Part shown: in pieces, positions 4,062 through 11,339 of the stretch | How the letters are laid out: each line of letters opens with the position of its first letter | Position numbering within the stretch: position 1 is the stretch's first letter | Source of the DNA: an uncultured Verrucomicrobiota bacterium | GTDB lineage: Bacteria > Verrucomicrobiota > Kiritimatiellia > CAIVKH01 | NCBI GenBank assembly: GCA_937872895.1 | Contig: CALMUP010000001.1 | Coordinates: 1-64,000, forward strand | Length of the DNA: 64,000 nt | Direction: 5' to 3' | Position numbers and translations under genes: made by a program | The notes under the pieces: generated by a model | Database searches by the model: none | Told to the model about the DNA's origin: nothing | The model's input: only the letters and a program-made list of their open reading frames with translations

Positions 4062-4300
4062 CATCGGAATGGTTCACCAACAGCGTTACGGGTTGCATAT
4101 GCTCTGTGGAGACATGGGCTATAACACCCTGCACCATCAACCCCTCTATTCGAAAGGAACATCAGGCTCATATCTCACCGACTCCCCGCTTTACGCCCCG
4201 CGAAAAACCCGCTACGCTACGCCCTGTCTTTGAGGAGGTTGCGACCGCACAAATAGAACATCGCCGGATCACAAGAAAACTATCCAATTACTTGTTGGGC
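4062..4300 (+). repeat. Duplicated ~240-bp leader block, copy A (attI-like position)
   Basis: This block recurs at 7858-8098. The last ~120 bp (from the ACTCCCCGCTTTACG segment on) are nearly identical in the two copies, while the first half is clearly diverged. Both copies end in a GTTGGG core (here GTTGGGC at 4294-4300) immediately before a cassette gene, which is the position of an integron attI site or of a preceding attC R' core. An open frame of ~88-92 codons runs through both copies, but the differences do not favour synonymous positions, so it is treated as non-coding. It may act as cassette-array leader, promoter source or recombination platform. Confidence 0.6.
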
Positions 4301-4306
4301 TAAGCA

Positions 4307-5308
4307 ATGAATACAAATAAAGTTAATCTAGAGAACGCTAAGTTTGTCATATCGTCTAAACTTGCGTATTCAATTCTGGCCGCCTTTTGCACAATTATTG
4401 GAGCCGCATTTATCTGTGGCATAAAATTTGAAGAATCAAATAATGCCGCTGAAGTTGCGACCATCATTGGTGAAAAGTCAGTGCTCGAAATAAAAAACCA
4501 AGGATTACAGAATTTTACTGATATTGAGCGCGCCAATAGCGGTGCAACCATTGAGCGATTGCGGGAACGAATGAACAATATGCACCAAATGCTTGAATTT
4601 GATAAGGAAGGCCAAGCAAGTATATTTTCGCATGGAACAATTCTATTAAACAAGAAAGATGCTCAATCACTTATCGCCACTGGTAATTATAGCTCCAGGG
4701 GTGATTTTCTATTCGAAACACTTAAAGATTATGGCTGGAAAGACGAGGAGGAGCTCTATCTTGCCCAAATATGGTCAATGGCCTATCTTGATGAAATTGA
4801 GTTGCTTGACGATGACGAAATTGCAAACAATCCTAATCCCCTTTGGCGAGCCAAGACATGGCTGATCAAATACGATTCTTTAAGTACGAACGTAGCCGGT
4901 ATATGTCTTGCTGGATACTGCAAAATCGACGATGCACTAAATATTGCATCATATATTTTTACATCCGAGGTTGTAAAATCATCATCAGGTGTTCTGCTCG
5001 ATCACGACCGAAACAAAGCCTCTACAAGCAAGCTAAAAGAACCATTTCTAGATTTCACATTACCTTTCATTAACACAAAGATTCGGGATATGAAATTTTC
5101 TTTAGCGTATATAACTCCAAAAATGATTTTAGTATCAGCAGAGAAGAAAAAAGTATTAGGCGACAATTATGCCGATGTCACATTTCTTGCTGTTGAACAA
5201 GGCGACATAGCATATTTCTTTTTGTCGGCAGCCTATGCAAACACGCAGGTTCACCCTGTAATGATAGAGTCAAAGCGATGGATTTACTCGGCAAGAGTTA
5301 TGGAATGA
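4307..5308 (+). CDS. Cassette 1: unknown protein with one N-terminal membrane helix
   Basis: 333 residues. One hydrophobic helix lies at residues ~18-38, followed by a mostly acidic/polar region of mixed structure; no family is recognised. Base composition is much more AT-rich than the flanking chromosome. The gene sits between the core GTTGGGC (4294-4300) and an attC-like site that begins with the exactly complementary GCCCAAC at 5310, so it is the coding part of one integron-type gene cassette. No convincing Shine-Dalgarno sequence precedes the ATG, which follows the recombination core by 6 bases. The function is unknown; the topology would fit a small membrane-tethered sensor or effector, but this is speculation. 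Confidence 0.8.
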   Translation: MNTNKVNLENAKFVISSKLAYSILAAFCTIIGAAFICGIKFEESNNAAEVATIIGEKSVLEIKNQGLQNFTDIERANSGATIERLRERMNNMHQMLEFDKEGQASIFSHGTILLNKKDAQSLIATGNYSSRGDFLFETLKDYGWKDEEELYLAQIWSMAYLDEIELLDDDEIANNPNPLWRAKTWLIKYDSLSTNVAGICLAGYCKIDDALNIASYIFTSEVVKSSSGVLLDHDRNKASTSKLKEPFLDFTLPFINTKIRDMKFSLAYITPKMILVSAEKKKVLGDNYADVTFLAVEQGDIAYFFLSAAYANTQVHPVMIESKRWIYSARVME

Positions 5309-5309
5309 A

Positions 5310-5363
5310 GCCCAACATGCGCCTCCAGCGCAGGCTTCGCCGCACTGAGGCTTGTCGTTAGCC
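5310..5363 (+). other. attC-like recombination site 1 (end of cassette 1)
   Basis: The site runs from R'' GCCCAAC (5310-5316) to R' GTTAGCC (5357-5363), 54 bp, matching the RYYYAAC...GTTRRRY consensus. Internal arms GCCTCCAG and CTGAGGC are imperfectly complementary, giving the expected hairpin. R'' is the exact complement of the GTTGGGC core at the leading edge of the same cassette, as expected if the cassette excises as a circle. Confidence 0.85.
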
Positions 5364-5370
5364 AGAAGAC

Positions 5371-7485
5371 ATGAAACTGACACACATCAATGTCCGAAAC
5401 TACAAAGGCTTGCGCGAAACCGAGTGCAAGCTTTCCGACTTCGTCTGCGCTGTGGGTGAAAACAATGCAGGGAAGTCGACACTTCTCCAAGCCCTACTGC
5501 TGTTTCTAAACGGAACCAAGCTGTCCAAGACAGACTACTACGACCCGATCGCTGATATCGTCATCACCGTCACTGTGCACGGCTTGTCTGCCGATGTGCT
5601 GGCCCGTTTGACTGACGAGCACAGGGCCAAGATCAGTCCATACATCGACGCGGAGACAATCGTCCTCGCACGACGATATTCGACGGATGGATCATCCAAA
5701 CTCCGCGTGATTACCCGCGTGCCAATTGATCCCAAATATGGCGATGAACAACTGGATTTGATTTTCAAAGGCAAGAAGGGTCGGGAAATCGCCGAGGTAC
5801 TACTCGCGGTTTACCCCGAGGTCGCACCACGCGAGGTTGCGTTCGCGGCCACGACGCAGAAGGCTGCGAAAGACCTTATTCAGCATTACATTCTCGCCCT
5901 ACCTGCTGATCAGACAACATTATCCGACATCCCACTTCCGACCGGGATCGACAACAGCATTCGGTCGGTACTCCCGGAGCCTGTTTACATTCCGGCAGTA
6001 AAAGACCTCATGGATGACCTCAAGACGAAGGAGAGTGCCTCCTTCGGCAAATTGCTCAACATACTGCTTGATGTCATCGAGGGCGATCTTACGGACACAG
6101 CAGAGACATTTGAAGCTCTTCGCAAGAAACTGAATCGGATCACTGGTGAAGATGGCGTCGTGACGGACGACAGAATGGAGCGGGTCAAGGCGATCGAGAA
6201 GACGATCCAAGACAATCTCCAGGAAACATTTAGGAATGTGCGGGTCGAACTGGAAATTCCTCCGCCAGAGATAAAGACGGTTCTATCCAACGCTACCATT
6301 ATTGCCGATGACGGGGTCCGTGGTCCTGCCGACCTGAAGGGCGATGGGTTCAAGCGTGCTATCACCTTCAGTATCCTGCGCACATACGTCCAGTTGTCCC
6401 AAGATGTTGCGTGGCGCTCGGAGCCCGAGGAAGGGCGACCAACTCGTGAAAAGTTCCTGTTCCTATTTGAAGAGCCCGAGCTCTATCTCCATCCTAGGGC
6501 ACAGAATATCTTGTTCGACGCGCTAACGCTCATTGCCAGAAATCACCAGGTCGTGGTTACGACCCACTCCCCAATGTTCCTCTCCGCTTCCGGAACCAAG
6601 ACATTCATCAAAGTCGCAAAGCGTACAGCACCAGAAGCTCCGAAGCCATTTGGCGAATGCTATCCAGTGGACCTCACGGATATTGCCGAACGGGATGCAT
6701 TTCAGTTGATCTCATTCGAGAGCAGCAACGTGGCCTTTTTCTCGAGCAAGATAGTTCTCGTGGAAGGCGATAGCGAGTTGATTGCCTTACCTCACATCTC
6801 CGCGATTCTAGATCCAAAGTGGGATTTCAAATCTACATCAACGAACGTTATCAAAGTTTCTGGGAAAGGGGCATTCAAGAGATATCGCGAGTTCTTCAAG
6901 CGCTTTGGCGTGAAGGTGTATATCGTGGCCGACTTGGATGTTCTTGTTGAGGACTTCGACAAACTCGACGCAAGTGAACGCGCGACGGAGCTACGACGGG
7001 ATTTGCTCAGGCTCGTCGACGCGATTATTGATGCCGAGAACAGGCTCGAACAACCATCGCCCAGACTTCTCCGCGAGGAGTTGCAGCGGGACCGGGCGCG
7101 AGTCCTTTACGAGCAACTCGGTGTTGCGCGACGGGCGAACGACGTTCCCAGCCAAACCCGTATCCTCGATGAACTATTTGTGTTTGAGCGCTCAAAGCCT
7201 CGGCTTGTTTTATTGGCTGATAACGCAAGAGTTGACGTTCTCGCGCTCAAGCGGCAGTTGTTATCGGAGCTCAGGTCAACCGGAGTGTGCGTTCTAGAGA
7301 GAGGCGCGATTGAGGCTTACTACTCGGCTGGCGTTGTCGGCGACGACAAGCCCACCAAAGCACAGTCCTTCTGCCTGTCGGTTACGACCCAGGATCAGGT
7401 GCGTGCACTCAGTGATCAAATTGAAAGCGGCGGGGAACAGGTCTCAGAACTGGAAGCAATTATGAGGACGATATTCGATGGCTAA
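5371..7485 (+). CDS. Cassette 2: OLD-family ATP-dependent nuclease (AAA ATPase + TOPRIM)
   Basis: 704 residues. The N-terminal ABC-type ATPase has Walker A GENNAGKST (residues ~30-38) and Walker B LFLFEEPELYLHP (near 365), followed by a VVVTTHSP H-loop segment. The C-terminal TOPRIM domain has LVEGDSE (conserved Glu) and IVADLD (DxD). This order is that of the OLD (overcoming lysogenisation defect) nucleases, which include phage-defence proteins such as P2 Old and GajA. No UvrD-like gajB partner follows, so it resembles the stand-alone class. It is carried by a cassette whose leading core GTTAGCC pairs exactly with GGCTAAC at 7480, overlapping the stop codon. An antiphage role is likely from family knowledge. 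Confidence 0.9.
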   Translation: MKLTHINVRNYKGLRETECKLSDFVCAVGENNAGKSTLLQALLLFLNGTKLSKTDYYDPIADIVITVTVHGLSADVLARLTDEHRAKISPYIDAETIVLARRYSTDGSSKLRVITRVPIDPKYGDEQLDLIFKGKKGREIAEVLLAVYPEVAPREVAFAATTQKAAKDLIQHYILALPADQTTLSDIPLPTGIDNSIRSVLPEPVYIPAVKDLMDDLKTKESASFGKLLNILLDVIEGDLTDTAETFEALRKKLNRITGEDGVVTDDRMERVKAIEKTIQDNLQETFRNVRVELEIPPPEIKTVLSNATIIADDGVRGPADLKGDGFKRAITFSILRTYVQLSQDVAWRSEPEEGRPTREKFLFLFEEPELYLHPRAQNILFDALTLIARNHQVVVTTHSPMFLSASGTKTFIKVAKRTAPEAPKPFGECYPVDLTDIAERDAFQLISFESSNVAFFSSKIVLVEGDSELIALPHISAILDPKWDFKSTSTNVIKVSGKGAFKRYREFFKRFGVKVYIVADLDVLVEDFDKLDASERATELRRDLLRLVDAIIDAENRLEQPSPRLLREELQRDRARVLYEQLGVARRANDVPSQTRILDELFVFERSKPRLVLLADNARVDVLALKRQLLSELRSTGVCVLERGAIEAYYSAGVVGDDKPTKAQSFCLSVTTQDQVRALSDQIESGGEQVSELEAIMRTIFDG

Positions 7486-7759
7486 CCAGAGGGTGCTGCT
7501 TATCGTGAAGGTATAGGGGTCACGTCTAGACATTGTACAATCACCCACTTCCCTTTTCCTGAACACATTGGAACGGCCGTGGTCTTCCGGTCTTTCCTGT
7601 TCCGCGAATCCATACGCCAGCGGGTCAACCTACATGCCATCGCCCGCTCACCATCTTAATCGGGGTGGCCGTTTCGGCAGCCGATCAATCAAACCATCCC
7701 GTTCACGCTATGCGCTATGTATAAGGTCACGACGTGACCCCTGGCGCTGTCAGTTAAAC
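7480..7759 (+). other. attC-like site 2, split by an inserted MITE-like element
   Basis: R'' GGCTAAC (7480-7486) is the exact complement of the cassette 2 leading core GTTAGCC. About 25 bp later the site is interrupted by the element at ~7512-7746. A consensus R' core, GTTAAAC (7753-7759), follows the element. The simplest reading is one attC site with the repeat inserted between its two arms. Confidence 0.6.
7512..7746. mobile_element. MITE-like repeat, copy 1
   Basis: About 235 bp, repeated with high identity at 11098-11330. The left end AGGGGTCACGTC and the right end (reverse complement also AGGGGTCACGTC) form an imperfect terminal inverted repeat of about 24 bp. No open frame of useful length is present, so it would be non-autonomous. 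Both copies have the same orientation and interrupt attC-like sites at a comparable place. It could alternatively be the remnant of a larger element. Confidence 0.65.
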
Positions 7760-7857: not shown

Positions 7858-8098
7858 CATCGGATTGGTTCACCAAAAAGGGGATGGATTGCTCATATGC
7901 TCTGTAGAATCATGGGTGAGAACACCTTGTGGCATCAACCTATCTTTTCGTAAGAAACATCAGACAAAAACCACACCGACTCCCCGCTTTACGCCCCGCG
8001 AAAAACCCGCTACGCTACGCCCTGTCTTTGAGGAGGTTGTGACCGCACAAATAGAACAGCGCCGGATCACAAGAAAACTATCCAATAACTTGTTGGGA
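7858..8098 (+). repeat. Duplicated ~240-bp leader block, copy B
   Basis: Second copy of the block at 4062-4300. It ends in the core GTTGGGA (8092-8098), directly before cassette 3. The distal ~120 bp are nearly identical to copy A. The 7760-7857 stretch in front of it holds only the degenerate hairpin noted separately. Confidence 0.6.
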
Positions 8099-8111
8099 TC
8101 GCGGAGACGAT

Positions 8112-9158
8112 ATGTGGAACGTGGTTAAAACAATAGGAAAGGTTCTAGCAGCGTGGCTCGGGATATGCGGGGCATTCGCTTCCCTTTATGCAATCCGTGC
8201 AGACATCACGGCCACGGCAGAAAATATCGCGTTTCACAAGGTCCTTCTTGCGACGATCAGTAAGCCGACCTTCATTGTTGGAGCCACCTGCGCGTTGCCT
8301 CTTATCGCATTTGCCATTTTCACGCACCTCAACCTCAAAGCGAGGGGCCACGTTTCCCTCCGCAAGTTCCTTCGTCGCCTCAACCCGTTGGTGTTCGGCC
8401 GAGTCTGCATTCAACTTCACCGGCTCGAACACCTCTATCAGGACATGGTGCACTTCATACGCGATCACAGGAAAGAGGGCGGAGTTTTCGACAGGGACGA
8501 TTTCAAGCGACACGTGTACCTGTTCCTAACACAATGCAAGTATATCCTCGATCTCTCAACCGGGGATGACGTGGCCGTTCACATTAAACTGTTTGAGCAC
8601 AAGAAGACGGACGGCAAGGCCCGTATTCCGCTTCCCAAGGCGATACTCAAGGCCTATGTCCGCGCACCGTCACAGCGTGAATGCATCCTTGTCGAACAGC
8701 AAAAACTGAGCCCGCGCGAGAGCGACGAGGAATTCCGCATCATCCGCGGAAATCAGGGGCTGGCATCCCGTATGATTGAGCGGAAAGACAAACTAGACAA
8801 TGCCCTTTACCGGCATTGCAGTGGATACAATCATGTATTCTCGGACCCGGAACACTTTTTCCTGTGCAACAACATTCCTCGCAAAGCGAGGCAGGGGCGG
8901 TTTTATAGCACAAGCAACAATTATCACCTGTACTACCGTAGTGCTGGAGTATTCCTCATTCACCAGCACCTGCAGTATGGAGAGACCGTCAATCACGACC
9001 CATTATGGGGTCTTCTCATCGTTGATTCTTTCGCGGTTGGTGTCTTTGAAAAGTTCATAACCAAGTATTTGGCTGGGTACATGGCGCATCGTCTTTTCGA
9101 TGCGTTCTCGTTCGCTGAGCAAATCGGAGCAGTCGGAGCACAGAAAGGGACAACATGA
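8112..9158 (+). CDS. Cassette 3: two-TM protein with GAF-like C-terminal domain
   Basis: 348 residues. Two hydrophobic helices lie near residues 8-30 and 52-72. A soluble region follows; its C-terminal part (WGLLIVDSFAVGVFEKFITKYLAGYMAHRL) has the end-of-domain pattern of GAF sensor folds. It shares a four-base ATGA overlap with a 64-residue partner gene, and both lie in one cassette bounded by GTTGGGA (8092) and its exact complement TCCCAAC (9351). A membrane effector with a ligand-sensing domain would fit, but no catalytic motif is visible and the GAF assignment is from pattern only. Confidence 0.7.
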   Translation: MWNVVKTIGKVLAAWLGICGAFASLYAIRADITATAENIAFHKVLLATISKPTFIVGATCALPLIAFAIFTHLNLKARGHVSLRKFLRRLNPLVFGRVCIQLHRLEHLYQDMVHFIRDHRKEGGVFDRDDFKRHVYLFLTQCKYILDLSTGDDVAVHIKLFEHKKTDGKARIPLPKAILKAYVRAPSQRECILVEQQKLSPRESDEEFRIIRGNQGLASRMIERKDKLDNALYRHCSGYNHVFSDPEHFFLCNNIPRKARQGRFYSTSNNYHLYYRSAGVFLIHQHLQYGETVNHDPLWGLLIVDSFAVGVFEKFITKYLAGYMAHRLFDAFSFAEQIGAVGAQKGTT

Positions 9159-9349
9159 GCAAGCAGAAGAAGCATGAAGTGACCACAAGCAAGGCGGAAA
9201 CCTCCACCCCACAGGTGTTTGCCTTCTCAAGGGGCGCGGTGAGTGGGTACGTAGTCGATCACAAAGCGCACATGGCACAGTGCAGTCACCCGACCCCCCA
9301 CAGAGATAGCATCGTGCGCTTTCTGAAGACCGCGGTGAGTGGAAAGTAG
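9155..9349 (+). CDS. Cassette 3: small 64-residue partner protein
   Basis: 64 residues, basic at the N-terminus (MSKQKKHE), no membrane segment and no recognised family. It starts within the stop of the 2TM/GAF-like gene (ATGA), which implies translational coupling, and ends one base before the attC-like site at 9351. Being retained within the same cassette supports it as a real second gene rather than a chance frame. Confidence 0.55.
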   Translation: MSKQKKHEVTTSKAETSTPQVFAFSRGAVSGYVVDHKAHMAQCSHPTPHRDSIVRFLKTAVSGK

Positions 9350-9350
9350 A

Positions 9351-9408
9351 TCCCAACCAAGCACTCCACGGTACGGCGTACCGCCGCCCGTGAGTGCAGG
9401 CGTTCAAT
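9351..9408 (+). other. attC-like recombination site 3 (end of cassette 3)
   Basis: R'' TCCCAAC (9351-9357) is the exact complement of the leading core GTTGGGA of the same cassette. The inner arms GCACTCCACGG and CCGTGAGTGC pair with one unpaired base, the extrahelical-base feature of attC. The R' position reads GTTCAAT (9402-9408), one base off the GTTRRRY consensus. Length 58 bp. Confidence 0.8.
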
Positions 9409-9421
9409 CAAACGAGGCGTC

Positions 9422-9450
9422 TTGACGTCATGCCGTCATAGCGGTATGTT
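9422..9450 (+). promoter_or_regulatory. Sigma70-type promoter within the RelBE cassette
   Basis: TTGACG (9422-9427) and TATGTT (9445-9450) are separated by exactly 17 bp. The transcription start would fall within a few bases of the antitoxin ATG at 9460, and no Shine-Dalgarno sequence lies between, so the transcript may be leaderless. Confidence 0.6.
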
Positions 9451-9459
9451 ATAGTCATT

Positions 9460-9681
9460 ATGAGTAAAGCAACCCTATACCTTGACGAGACGATCCATAA
9501 AGCAATTCGGATTAAAGCTGCCGAAACACGCCAATCCATGTCCGACCTGGTCAATGATGCTCTCCGGGCCAGCCTAACTGAAGACCTTGATGATCTTCAC
9601 GAGATCAAAAAGCGGCGACATGAGAAAACAGTTGGATTTGAGGCGTTTCTGGGGCAATTGAAAAAAGATGGCATCATTTAG
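9460..9681 (+). CDS. Cassette 4: RelB/CopG-type antitoxin
   Basis: 73 residues. The N-terminal ribbon-helix-helix pattern (ATLYLDETIHKAIRIKAAETRQSMSDLVNDALR) binds DNA in this family. The C-terminal part should wrap the toxin. It overlaps the downstream toxin gene by 14 bases. Antitoxins of this type repress their own operon, and the promoter ends right at the start codon, so autoregulation there is likely. Confidence 0.88.
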   Translation: MSKATLYLDETIHKAIRIKAAETRQSMSDLVNDALRASLTEDLDDLHEIKKRRHEKTVGFEAFLGQLKKDGII

Positions 9682-9928
9682 GATCGAATTTGCCACCAGC
9701 GTTCGGAAAGATTTCAGGAATATTCCCAAGCAGGACGCATCTCGGATACTGAAGCGGATCGAGGGCTTAGCCGAGAACCCTCGCCCACCAGACAGCAAGA
9801 AACTTTCTGGTGACAATGCCATGAGGATTCGTATCGGCATGTATCGTGTCATATACGAAATCCGCAATGAAGCTTTGATCGTACTTATTCTTAGAGTCGG
9901 GCACCGAAAAGATATTTACCGAAAATAA
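9668..9928 (+). CDS. Cassette 4: RelE/ParE-type toxin
   Basis: 86 residues, the usual RelE length. Visible family features are the N-terminal FRIEFATSVRKDFRNIPK strand-helix, the PPDSKKLSGDNAMRIRIGMYRVIYEI core and the C-terminal VLILRVGHRKDIYR. Such toxins are ribosome-dependent mRNA endonucleases (RelE) or gyrase poisons (ParE); the basic RIRIGMYR segment favours the RelE side. The gene overlaps the antitoxin by 14 bases and is followed 4 bases later by attC-like site 4. Toxin-antitoxin pairs are common in integron arrays, where they can stabilise the array. Confidence 0.9.
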   Translation: MASFRIEFATSVRKDFRNIPKQDASRILKRIEGLAENPRPPDSKKLSGDNAMRIRIGMYRVIYEIRNEALIVLILRVGHRKDIYRK

Positions 9929-9932
9929 GACG

Positions 9933-9988
9933 ATCGAACATGTGCCTCCAGCACACCCTTCGGGGCGCACTGAGGCTGGTCGTTGCGC
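9933..9988 (+). other. attC-like recombination site 4 (end of cassette 4)
   Basis: R'' ATCGAAC (9933-9939) pairs with the leading core GTTCAAT (9402) with one mismatch. The arms TGCCTCCAGCAC and GCACTGAGGC are close to those of site 1, and R' is GTTGCGC (9982-9988), one base off consensus. Length 56 bp. Confidence 0.75.
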
Positions 9989-10049
9989 CAGAAGAAGATC
10001 CCCGAATCAGGCTGTTGCCATAATGCACACATTGTGCTGCATTCCGTAA

Positions 10050-10331
10050 ATGAAAGCTTACGACTGGAGTGACCAAAAGAATGAGGCGCTAAACCACGAA
10101 CGCGGTATCTCGTTTGAAGACATCATCTTCCATATCACCAGCGGCGGACTATTAGACACCATTGAACATCCAAACAGCACGCAATATCCAGGACAACGTA
10201 TATTTATCGTCAACGTCGAGGGCTATGCTTTTTAAGTGCCGTTCGTAGAAGATGCCGAAACAATATTTTTGAAGACAATTACTCCAAGCCGAAAAATGAC
10301 AAAGAAACATTTGGGAGGTGAGAAAACATGA
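10050..10331 (+). pseudogene. brnT: Cassette 5: BrnT-type toxin gene with an in-frame stop
   Basis: The first 61 codons (DWSDQKNEALNHERGISFED..., as in BrnT RNase toxins) end at a TAA at 10233-10235. The same frame then continues as VPFVEDAETIFLKTITPSRKMTKKHL, which matches the expected C-terminal half of BrnT, and closes with a TGA (10329-10331) that overlaps the antitoxin ATG as in intact brnTA operons. The simplest explanation is one nonsense change in a formerly complete 93-codon gene. The truncated toxin would lack the C-terminal catalytic half. A sequencing error at one base is the alternative. Confidence 0.75.
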
Positions 10332-10600
10332 ATCTGACTAAAGAGGAAAAAGACTTGCTTGATTCCGTCGAGAGGGGCGAATGGAAAAGAATTCCAAATT
10401 TTAAGCGAGAAGTCTCTCGGTTCCAAGAGGCCGCTAGAAACACACTTCGAAAAGATAAACGCGTTAACATTCGAATCACCGAGCGGGATCTCGTTCGAAT
10501 CCAGAAGGCAGCTGTGCATGAGGGGCTTCCCTATCAAACACTTATTTCCCGCGTTCTTCACAAATACGTGAATGGAAGACTAGTGGAAAAAGCCGGATAA
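10328..10600 (+). CDS. brnA: Cassette 5: BrnA-type antitoxin
   Basis: 90 residues. A charged N-terminal region is followed by a ribbon-helix-helix segment (RVNIRITERDLVRIQKAAVHEGLPYQTLISRVLHKYVNGRL) typical of BrnA/CopG antitoxins, which bind the operator and the toxin. Its ATG overlaps the stop of the original toxin frame. A GGGAGGTGAG Shine-Dalgarno region lies just upstream, so it can still be translated although the toxin is interrupted. It ends at the attC-like site. Confidence 0.82.
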   Translation: MNLTKEEKDLLDSVERGEWKRIPNFKREVSRFQEAARNTLRKDKRVNIRITERDLVRIQKAAVHEGLPYQTLISRVLHKYVNGRLVEKAG

Positions 10601-10663
10601 GCACAACATGTCCCGCCATGAGGACGCGGCGAAGCGCCGCGCCCCTGAGGCTTGTCGTTAGGC
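10601..10663 (+). other. attC-like recombination site 5 (end of cassette 5)
   Basis: R'' GCACAAC (10601-10607) pairs with the leading core GTTGCGC (9982) with one mismatch, and R' is a consensus GTTAGGC (10657-10663). The centre (GACGCGGCGAAGCGCCGCGCC) forms a strong GC hairpin. Length 63 bp. Confidence 0.8.
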
Positions 10664-10695
10664 TTTTTACTCAATAATCAAAAAGGAGAGAACAA

Positions 10696-11052
10696 ATGAC
10701 CGAGTCAGCATCAAAAGGTATAGACGAAAAGTATTGCACAGAGTGTGGGGCAATAATCAAGGCGAAGGCAGAGATATGTCCCAAGTGCGGTGTCCGTCAG
10801 ATTGCGAAGTCAGCTGCGATCAATCTAGGCCCCACTACCGCAAATGGAAAAAGTAGAATTGCTGCGGCACTTCTTGCGTTTTTCCTGGGTGGTATAGGTG
10901 TGCACAAGTTCTATTTGGGGCAGCCGGGACTCGGCATTGTGTATCTGCTGTTTTGTTGGACATTTATTCCCGCAATTATTGCATTCATCGAATTCATTAT
11001 ATATCTGACCATGAGCGACGAAGCATTTAATCAGAAGTACGGCCAAGCCTAA
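10696..11052 (+). CDS. Cassette 6: zinc-ribbon/TM2 domain membrane protein
   Basis: 118 residues. An N-terminal zinc ribbon (CTECG ... CPKCG, residues ~14-35) is followed by a TM2 domain with two helices and the conserved GGIGVHKFYLGQ turn, then CWTFIPAIIAFIEFI. An AAAGGAG Shine-Dalgarno sequence precedes the ATG. The leading core GTTAGGC and the trailing GCCTAAC (11047-11053, overlapping the stop) are exact complements, so this is one cassette. TM2 proteins have no settled function in bacteria. Confidence 0.88.
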   Translation: MTESASKGIDEKYCTECGAIIKAKAEICPKCGVRQIAKSAAINLGPTTANGKSRIAAALLAFFLGGIGVHKFYLGQPGLGIVYLLFCWTFIPAIIAFIEFIIYLTMSDEAFNQKYGQA

Positions 11053-11339
11053 CATTTACCGCCAGAGGGACGCGGCCAAAGCGCCGCGCCCCTGAGGTAT
11101 AGGGGTCACGTCTAGACATCGTACAATGGCCCATTTCCCTTTTCATGAACACATTGGAACGGCCGTGGTCTCCCGGTCTTTCTTGTTCCGCGAATCCATG
11201 CGCCAGCAGGTCAACCTACATGCCATCGCCCGCCCACCATCTTGATCGGGTGGCCGTTTCGCCGCCGTTCAATCAAATGATCGCGTTCACGCTATGGGCA
11301 ATGTACAATAGCGAGTCGTGATCCCTGGCGATGTTGAAG
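11047..11339 (+). other. attC-like site 6, split by an inserted MITE-like element
   Basis: R'' GCCTAAC (11047-11053) and most of the inner arms match site 5 base for base as far as CCCCTGAGG (11097). The sequence then switches to the repeat element (11098-11330). After the element GTTGAAG (11333-11339) lies at the expected R' place, one base off consensus. Confidence 0.6.
11098..11330. mobile_element. MITE-like repeat, copy 2
   Basis: Second copy of the 7512-7746 element, in the same orientation and with imperfect terminal inverted repeats (left AGGGGTCACG, right end reading AGGGATCACG on the other strand, both continuing to a shared ATTGTAC). It again starts after an AGG that belongs to an attC-like arm. 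No coding capacity is seen. Confidence 0.65.

Follow-up and report, generated by a model that had tools for sequence, protein, structure and literature searches.

The window, a stretch of 64,000 nucleotides from an uncultured lineage of Verrucomicrobiota, carries near its left end an open reading frame at 5371-7485 on the forward strand that encodes 704 amino acids from an ATG start with no internal stops. The frame lies within a series of short boxes, attC-like hairpins and repeats whose features are as follows.

4062-4300, forward strand: attI-like leader, the conserved part of which ends at the crossover CCAATTACTTG^TTGGGC
4295-5357, forward strand: cassette A, encoding a 333-residue protein (4307-5308) of unassigned function without a Pfam match; the boxes GTTGGGC (4294) and GCCCAAC (5310) are exact reverse complements
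5310-5363, forward strand: complete attC of cassette A (R'' GCCCAAC, R' GTTAGCC), an imperfect inverted repeat with a hairpin fold, whose end is the 5' edge of the OLD cassette
5371-7485, forward strand: cassette B, an OLD-family ATPase-TOPRIM protein of 704 residues, recognised by Pfam and PADLOC and keeping most of the active-site residues of P2 Old
7480-7508, forward strand: left half of the OLD attC, the stop codon lying in its R'' box GGCTAAC, with about 22 nt between this box and an insertion
7509-7750, no strand assigned: MITE-like repeat of about 230 bp with terminal inverted repeats at 7515-7539 and 7718-7742, in place of the right half of the attC
7858-8097, forward strand: second attI-like leader, 86% identical over 240 nt to 4062-4300, which opens a second cassette series
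8093-9402, forward strand: cassette C, a 348-residue protein (8112-9158) without a Pfam match; boxes GTTGGGA (8092) and TCCCAAC (9351)
9403-9982, forward strand: cassette D, an antitoxin-like protein of 73 residues and a ParE toxin of 86 residues (ParE_toxin, 55 bits); boxes GTTCAAT (9402) and ATCGAAC (9933)
9983-10657, forward strand: cassette E, a small frame judged BrnT-like by eye and a CopG-type antitoxin (CopG_antitoxin, 25 bits, below the cut-off); boxes GTTGCGC (9982) and GCACAAC (10601)
10658-11094, forward strand: cassette F, a zinc-ribbon TM2-domain protein (TM2, 68.6 bits); boxes GTTAGGC (10657) and GCCTAAC (11047), its attC shortened by a repeat
11095-11334, no strand assigned: a further copy of the MITE-like repeat, which lies within cassette F's attC

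In an integron cassette, the R'' box at the 3' end is the reverse complement of the R' box at the same cassette's own 5' end. The OLD gene obeys this rule, its 5' box GTTAGCC (5357-5363) being the exact reverse complement of GGCTAAC (7480-7486), and its TAA stop (7483-7485) falls within the latter. When the boxes of all six cassettes in the array are compared, 22 of the 24 variable bases match, a result that only one of the 720 possible pairings, the true one, achieves. The cassette genes have 39-53% GC, the OLD gene standing at 53%, versus 70% in the left flank. No Rfam family matched across the region, and promoter-like and terminator-like sites were not clearly more frequent there than in shuffled sequence. 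At the very start of the contig (window 1-120), a long C-rich run truncates polA and has the look of an assembly or sequencing artefact.

The protein itself has an N-terminal ATPase domain (Pfam AAA_15, residues 1-403, 127 bits) and a C-terminal OLD-type TOPRIM domain (OLD-like_TOPRIM, residues 456-523, 65 bits), both above their curated cut-offs, which is the arrangement of an OLD-family nuclease, and the PADLOC 'Old' model scores it at 315 bits against 116 bits for the best GajA model. The reading frame, Pfam and PADLOC thus agree with the initial annotation, which had called it a 704-residue ATPase-TOPRIM gene of this family. In a tblastn search, the Old protein of phage P2 was the sole homologue in the phage collection (27.7% identity, E 2e-21), and no relative was found in the viral contigs searched. 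In a MAFFT alignment the ATPase residues K35, E367, H374 and H399 fall on K37, D299, H306 and H332 of P2 Old, so that the Walker A, Walker B, D-loop and H-loop residues are all present, the Walker B position being a glutamate as in Ts OLD. The TOPRIM residues E465, E469, D521, D523 and E648 likewise match positions among those listed as required in vivo in P2 Old (Schiltz et al., 2020; PMC7049728). Two P2 residues are not kept, D541 being replaced by A646 and K550 by V655, and the basic residues K660 and K663 close by might substitute. The equivalents of D541 and K550 are also absent from homologues at 59% and about 40% identity, suggesting that the differences are a feature of this longer subgroup and not decay. 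A long insert separates the DxD motif from the C-terminal motif in the window protein, and an AlphaFold2 model built on an alignment of two sequences had a mean pLDDT of 41.

Isolation is the defining trait of Class 1 OLD proteins (PMC10568477). Neither a helicase nor a reverse transcriptase adjoins the OLD gene in its array, where the neighbours are cassettes of unknown, toxin-antitoxin and TM2 type, and in the position of a gajB-type helicase, as expected for Class 2 or Gabija, the next frame downstream is cassette C, which has no helicase match. At 704 residues the protein is not short in the manner of Class 1 (586 for P2 Old, 528 for Ts OLD), and it is therefore assigned to Class 1 by context only.

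Within its own array, the OLD gene is the sole cassette with a defence-type domain, cassettes D and E being toxin-antitoxin pairs. An array on another contig of the genome (C19), which has the same leader, carries a SLFN_AlbA_2 cassette that follows the box rule (GTTGGGT / ACCCAAC) and then a type II-A retron (NDT_II-A, 188 bits; RT_II-A, 369 bits), laid out on the reverse strand (L020:9957-12084) as NDT effector, ncRNA-like region and reverse transcriptase. One leader copy on C19 (L020:9430-9582) has a PIN/AbrB toxin-antitoxin cassette attached in reversed orientation, its attC ending in the inverted left box of the leader (GTTGGAT). That the array of the OLD gene ships antiphage functions, as the initial annotation proposed, is plausible but unproven, and the present OLD copy is probably no longer shipped, its attC being a broken half-site.

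We consider it rather likely that the gene encodes a stand-alone OLD ATPase-nuclease (Class 1 by context), acquired as an integron cassette, that would stop phage infection; a stand-alone (Class 1) anti-phage nuclease is the most likely function, predicted from homology with moderate confidence. As described in PMC13261556, P2 Old blocks phage lambda and is triggered by loss of RecBC function, cleavage of host tRNA by it has been reported, induction of Escherichia coli YbjD yields anti-phage phenotypes, and a Class 1 OLD protein of Vibrio cholerae defends against phage; for Gabija, a RecBCD-guarding model has been put forward (PMC12407980). The ABC-type ATPase would sense a phage-caused state, by analogy with P2 Old and Gabija interference with DNA-end machinery of the RecBCD type, and the two-metal TOPRIM nuclease would then be unleashed on DNA, or on tRNA as for P2 Old, so that the infection is stopped.

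Alternatively, the gene could be a genuine cassette whose product acts in DNA repair, in cell-cycle control or in the maintenance of plasmids or cassettes, much as the archaeal Cran1 is described as an OLD ATPase with a non-defence role (PMC12796447); deletion of E. coli ybjD left phage susceptibility unchanged, and its Toprim domain was dispensable (PMC13261556). We regard such a role as rather unlikely: the P2-type Old model is the best profile and the active-site residues are largely kept, a sparse and horizontally moved gene fits defence better than housekeeping, and a type II-A retron is found in a sister array.

The initial annotation was right that the trailing attC core overlaps the stop codon, but what follows the gene is only the left half of a site and not a full attC. 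A right half complementary to GGCTAAC was sought downstream of the OLD gene and not found, and its place is taken by the MITE-like repeat, which matches 11095-11250 in the second copy at 93% identity over 156 nt. The 25-nt terminal inverted repeats of the element contain GGTCACGTCTAGACATTGTACAAT, and these ends recur both at other places in the window's own genome and in related genomes, in some cases beside genes for Y1/REP-associated transposases, the Y1 identity of which was assigned by motif rather than by profile search. By this likeness in sequence, the repeats appear to be MITEs derived from RAYT elements. Both copies interrupt an attC after a RAGG tetranucleotide. The element was possibly a single-strand transposon with a preference for folded attC sites. 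As the repeat has replaced the right half of its attC, the OLD cassette is probably fixed in place, and the presence of a transposon relic in two attC sites of this array points to one route by which mobile cassettes may turn permanent.

Could the trailing site nonetheless work as a giant attC, in which the repeat forms the hairpin that joins GGCTAAC (7480) to a GTTAAAC box at 7753, leaving the cassette mobile? The ends of the repeat do pair in a strong bottom-strand stem, and a GTTRRRY box does come after them. Yet GTTAAAC pairs with GGCTAAC in the core alone, with no complementarity past it and no L'/L'' pairing left, no next cassette starts at GTTAAAC with a matching R'', and in cassette F, whose attC is cut by the same repeat, no GTTRRRY box lies close behind. 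A giant attC across the repeat was accordingly judged very unlikely, and we retain the reading of a cassette probably fixed by the insertion.

A scan of genome contigs for OLD relatives identified one, a full-length homologue with 59% identity in the metagenome-assembled 'Deltaproteobacteria' genome M_MaxBin.025 (locus L023). This gene has the same edges, GTTAGCC and GGCTAAC, the same span of 2130 nt and the same stop within the box as the window copy. The window copy lacks a complete attC, whereas the relative is followed by one, ending in GTTCGGC; it also differs in having a DUF2726 cassette upstream as neighbour and in being AT-rich (34% GC). The M_MaxBin.025 genome holds a truncated gene resembling an integron integrase (220 bits over positions 2-214). 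Orthologues at E<1e-80 were found neither in 387 other sampled genomes of the window's phylum nor in 378 sampled genomes of the phylum of M_MaxBin.025, and a fixed chromosomal copy without attC, which would speak against cassette carriage, turned up in none of the 7 family members or the 387 phylum genomes. The absence of orthologues across the sampled phylum indicates that the OLD gene is not a fixed chromosomal one. We call the two bacteria distant on three grounds: the identity of 59%, a base composition that differs greatly, and the fact that neither gene recurs in the other members sampled from the two phyla. A cassette with equal edges in so distantly related a bacterium appears to have been carried from lineage to lineage by integrons.

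Homologues with 38-40% identity on plasmids of Streptomyces, Burkholderia and Rhodococcus were considered as further cassettes, and visual inspection of two of them, in Burkholderia and Streptomyces, revealed no attC pair. A DNA search of E. coli genomes gave no match, and the sole match in a DNA search with the L023 cassette was an attC-like stretch, not the gene, on the Citrobacter freundii plasmid pLNU-11: the attC of the L023 OLD gene (L023:8112-8175) is 84% identical to L054:3001-3063, which lies close to the reverse transcriptase of a group II intron.

Beyond the two leaders in the window, four further copies are scattered in the genome (contigs C19, C15 and C9), and two family members (G001 and G003) have single copies. 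Conservation of the leader ends at the G^TT crossover. In a third relative (G002, L060), the 3' core of the leader adjoins a divergent and damaged intI, and the cassette after it obeys the box rule, which supports the identity of the leader as attI. Integron integrases are present in seven of the eight family genomes. In the window's own genome, the sole intact intI (425 bits) lies on contig C21, close to the end of that contig; the array of the OLD gene is led by an attI-like site without an adjoining integrase, and is not a complete integron in which intI adjoins attI and array. It appears that the genome contains several arrays lacking an integrase, every one led by an attI of its own. After the intact integrase (L010:6008-8310) comes a second tyrosine recombinase frame, which overlaps it and runs in the same direction, and then, where the contig ends, an attI-like site, a two-recombinase arrangement that is unusual.

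That the boxes and hairpins around the OLD gene arose by chance, and that it is an ordinary island gene, might be argued from its incomplete trailing attC and from the lack of an adjoining integrase gene, but is made exceedingly improbable by the complementarity over six cassettes that only one of 720 pairings equals, by the L023 copy with identical boundaries, equal length and a complete attC, and by the attI-like leader that adjoins intI in a relative. The exact boxes, the array-wide rule and the independent copy in another genome uphold the earlier call of a cassette, and that the OLD gene is a genuine integron cassette by origin is strongly supported on these grounds of sequence. Judging from the matching boxes and the distant copy, the cassette would once have been mobilised by an integron integrase, through excision and insertion, coming to lie second behind the attI-like leader. 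With no integrase beside that leader and the only intact one on another contig, integration would have taken place in trans or before the loci were separated. The RAYT-derived MITE-like element would later have taken out the right half of the attC.

The role of integrons as stores of anti-phage cassettes was established in 2025 (Darracq, Kieffer, Getz; as related in PMC12409362), and a review of that year describes integron defence genes as streamlined in size (PMC12409362). Compared with these, the 2.1-kb, full-size OLD gene is unusually large for a cassette, as the initial annotation had remarked, and the window cassette is notable among integron defence cassettes for its full size and its conservation across lineages. 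No report of an OLD cassette was found in open papers, an absence of little weight as the 2025 primary studies lay outside the scope of the search. The presence of a 2.1-kb OLD ATPase-nuclease as a cassette in two distant bacteria means that full-size defence-type enzymes can also travel in this manner. More tentatively, full-size OLD nucleases may form a long-lived cassette lineage that crosses between distant groups via integrons, the integrase-less, attI-led arrays of this family may serve as dispersed defence stores (OLD, type II-A retron), and single-strand elements of the RAYT type may close array ends by insertion into attC; we offer this wider picture as a possibility that we think doubtful as yet.

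Among known systems, the closest experimentally studied homologue found is P2 Old (Class 1), likewise a single gene with ATPase and TOPRIM domains whose catalytic residues align with those of the window protein. It differs in length (586 versus 704 residues) and in being a prophage gene rather than a cassette, is 27.7% identical, and has the D541 and K550 that are not kept here. GajA of Gabija (Class 2) shares the ATPase-TOPRIM layout and is of similar length, but in the window no UvrD/Rep-like GajB partner adjoins the gene, and the match to the PADLOC GajA models, at up to 116 bits, is weaker than that to Old. The anti-phage cassettes of Vibrio chromosomal integrons and of mobile integrons, as presented in PMC12409362, likewise deliver a defence-type gene as a cassette; whereas those cassettes are streamlined, the window holds a full 2.1-kb OLD gene from an uncultured lineage, for which a role in defence is predicted by homology.
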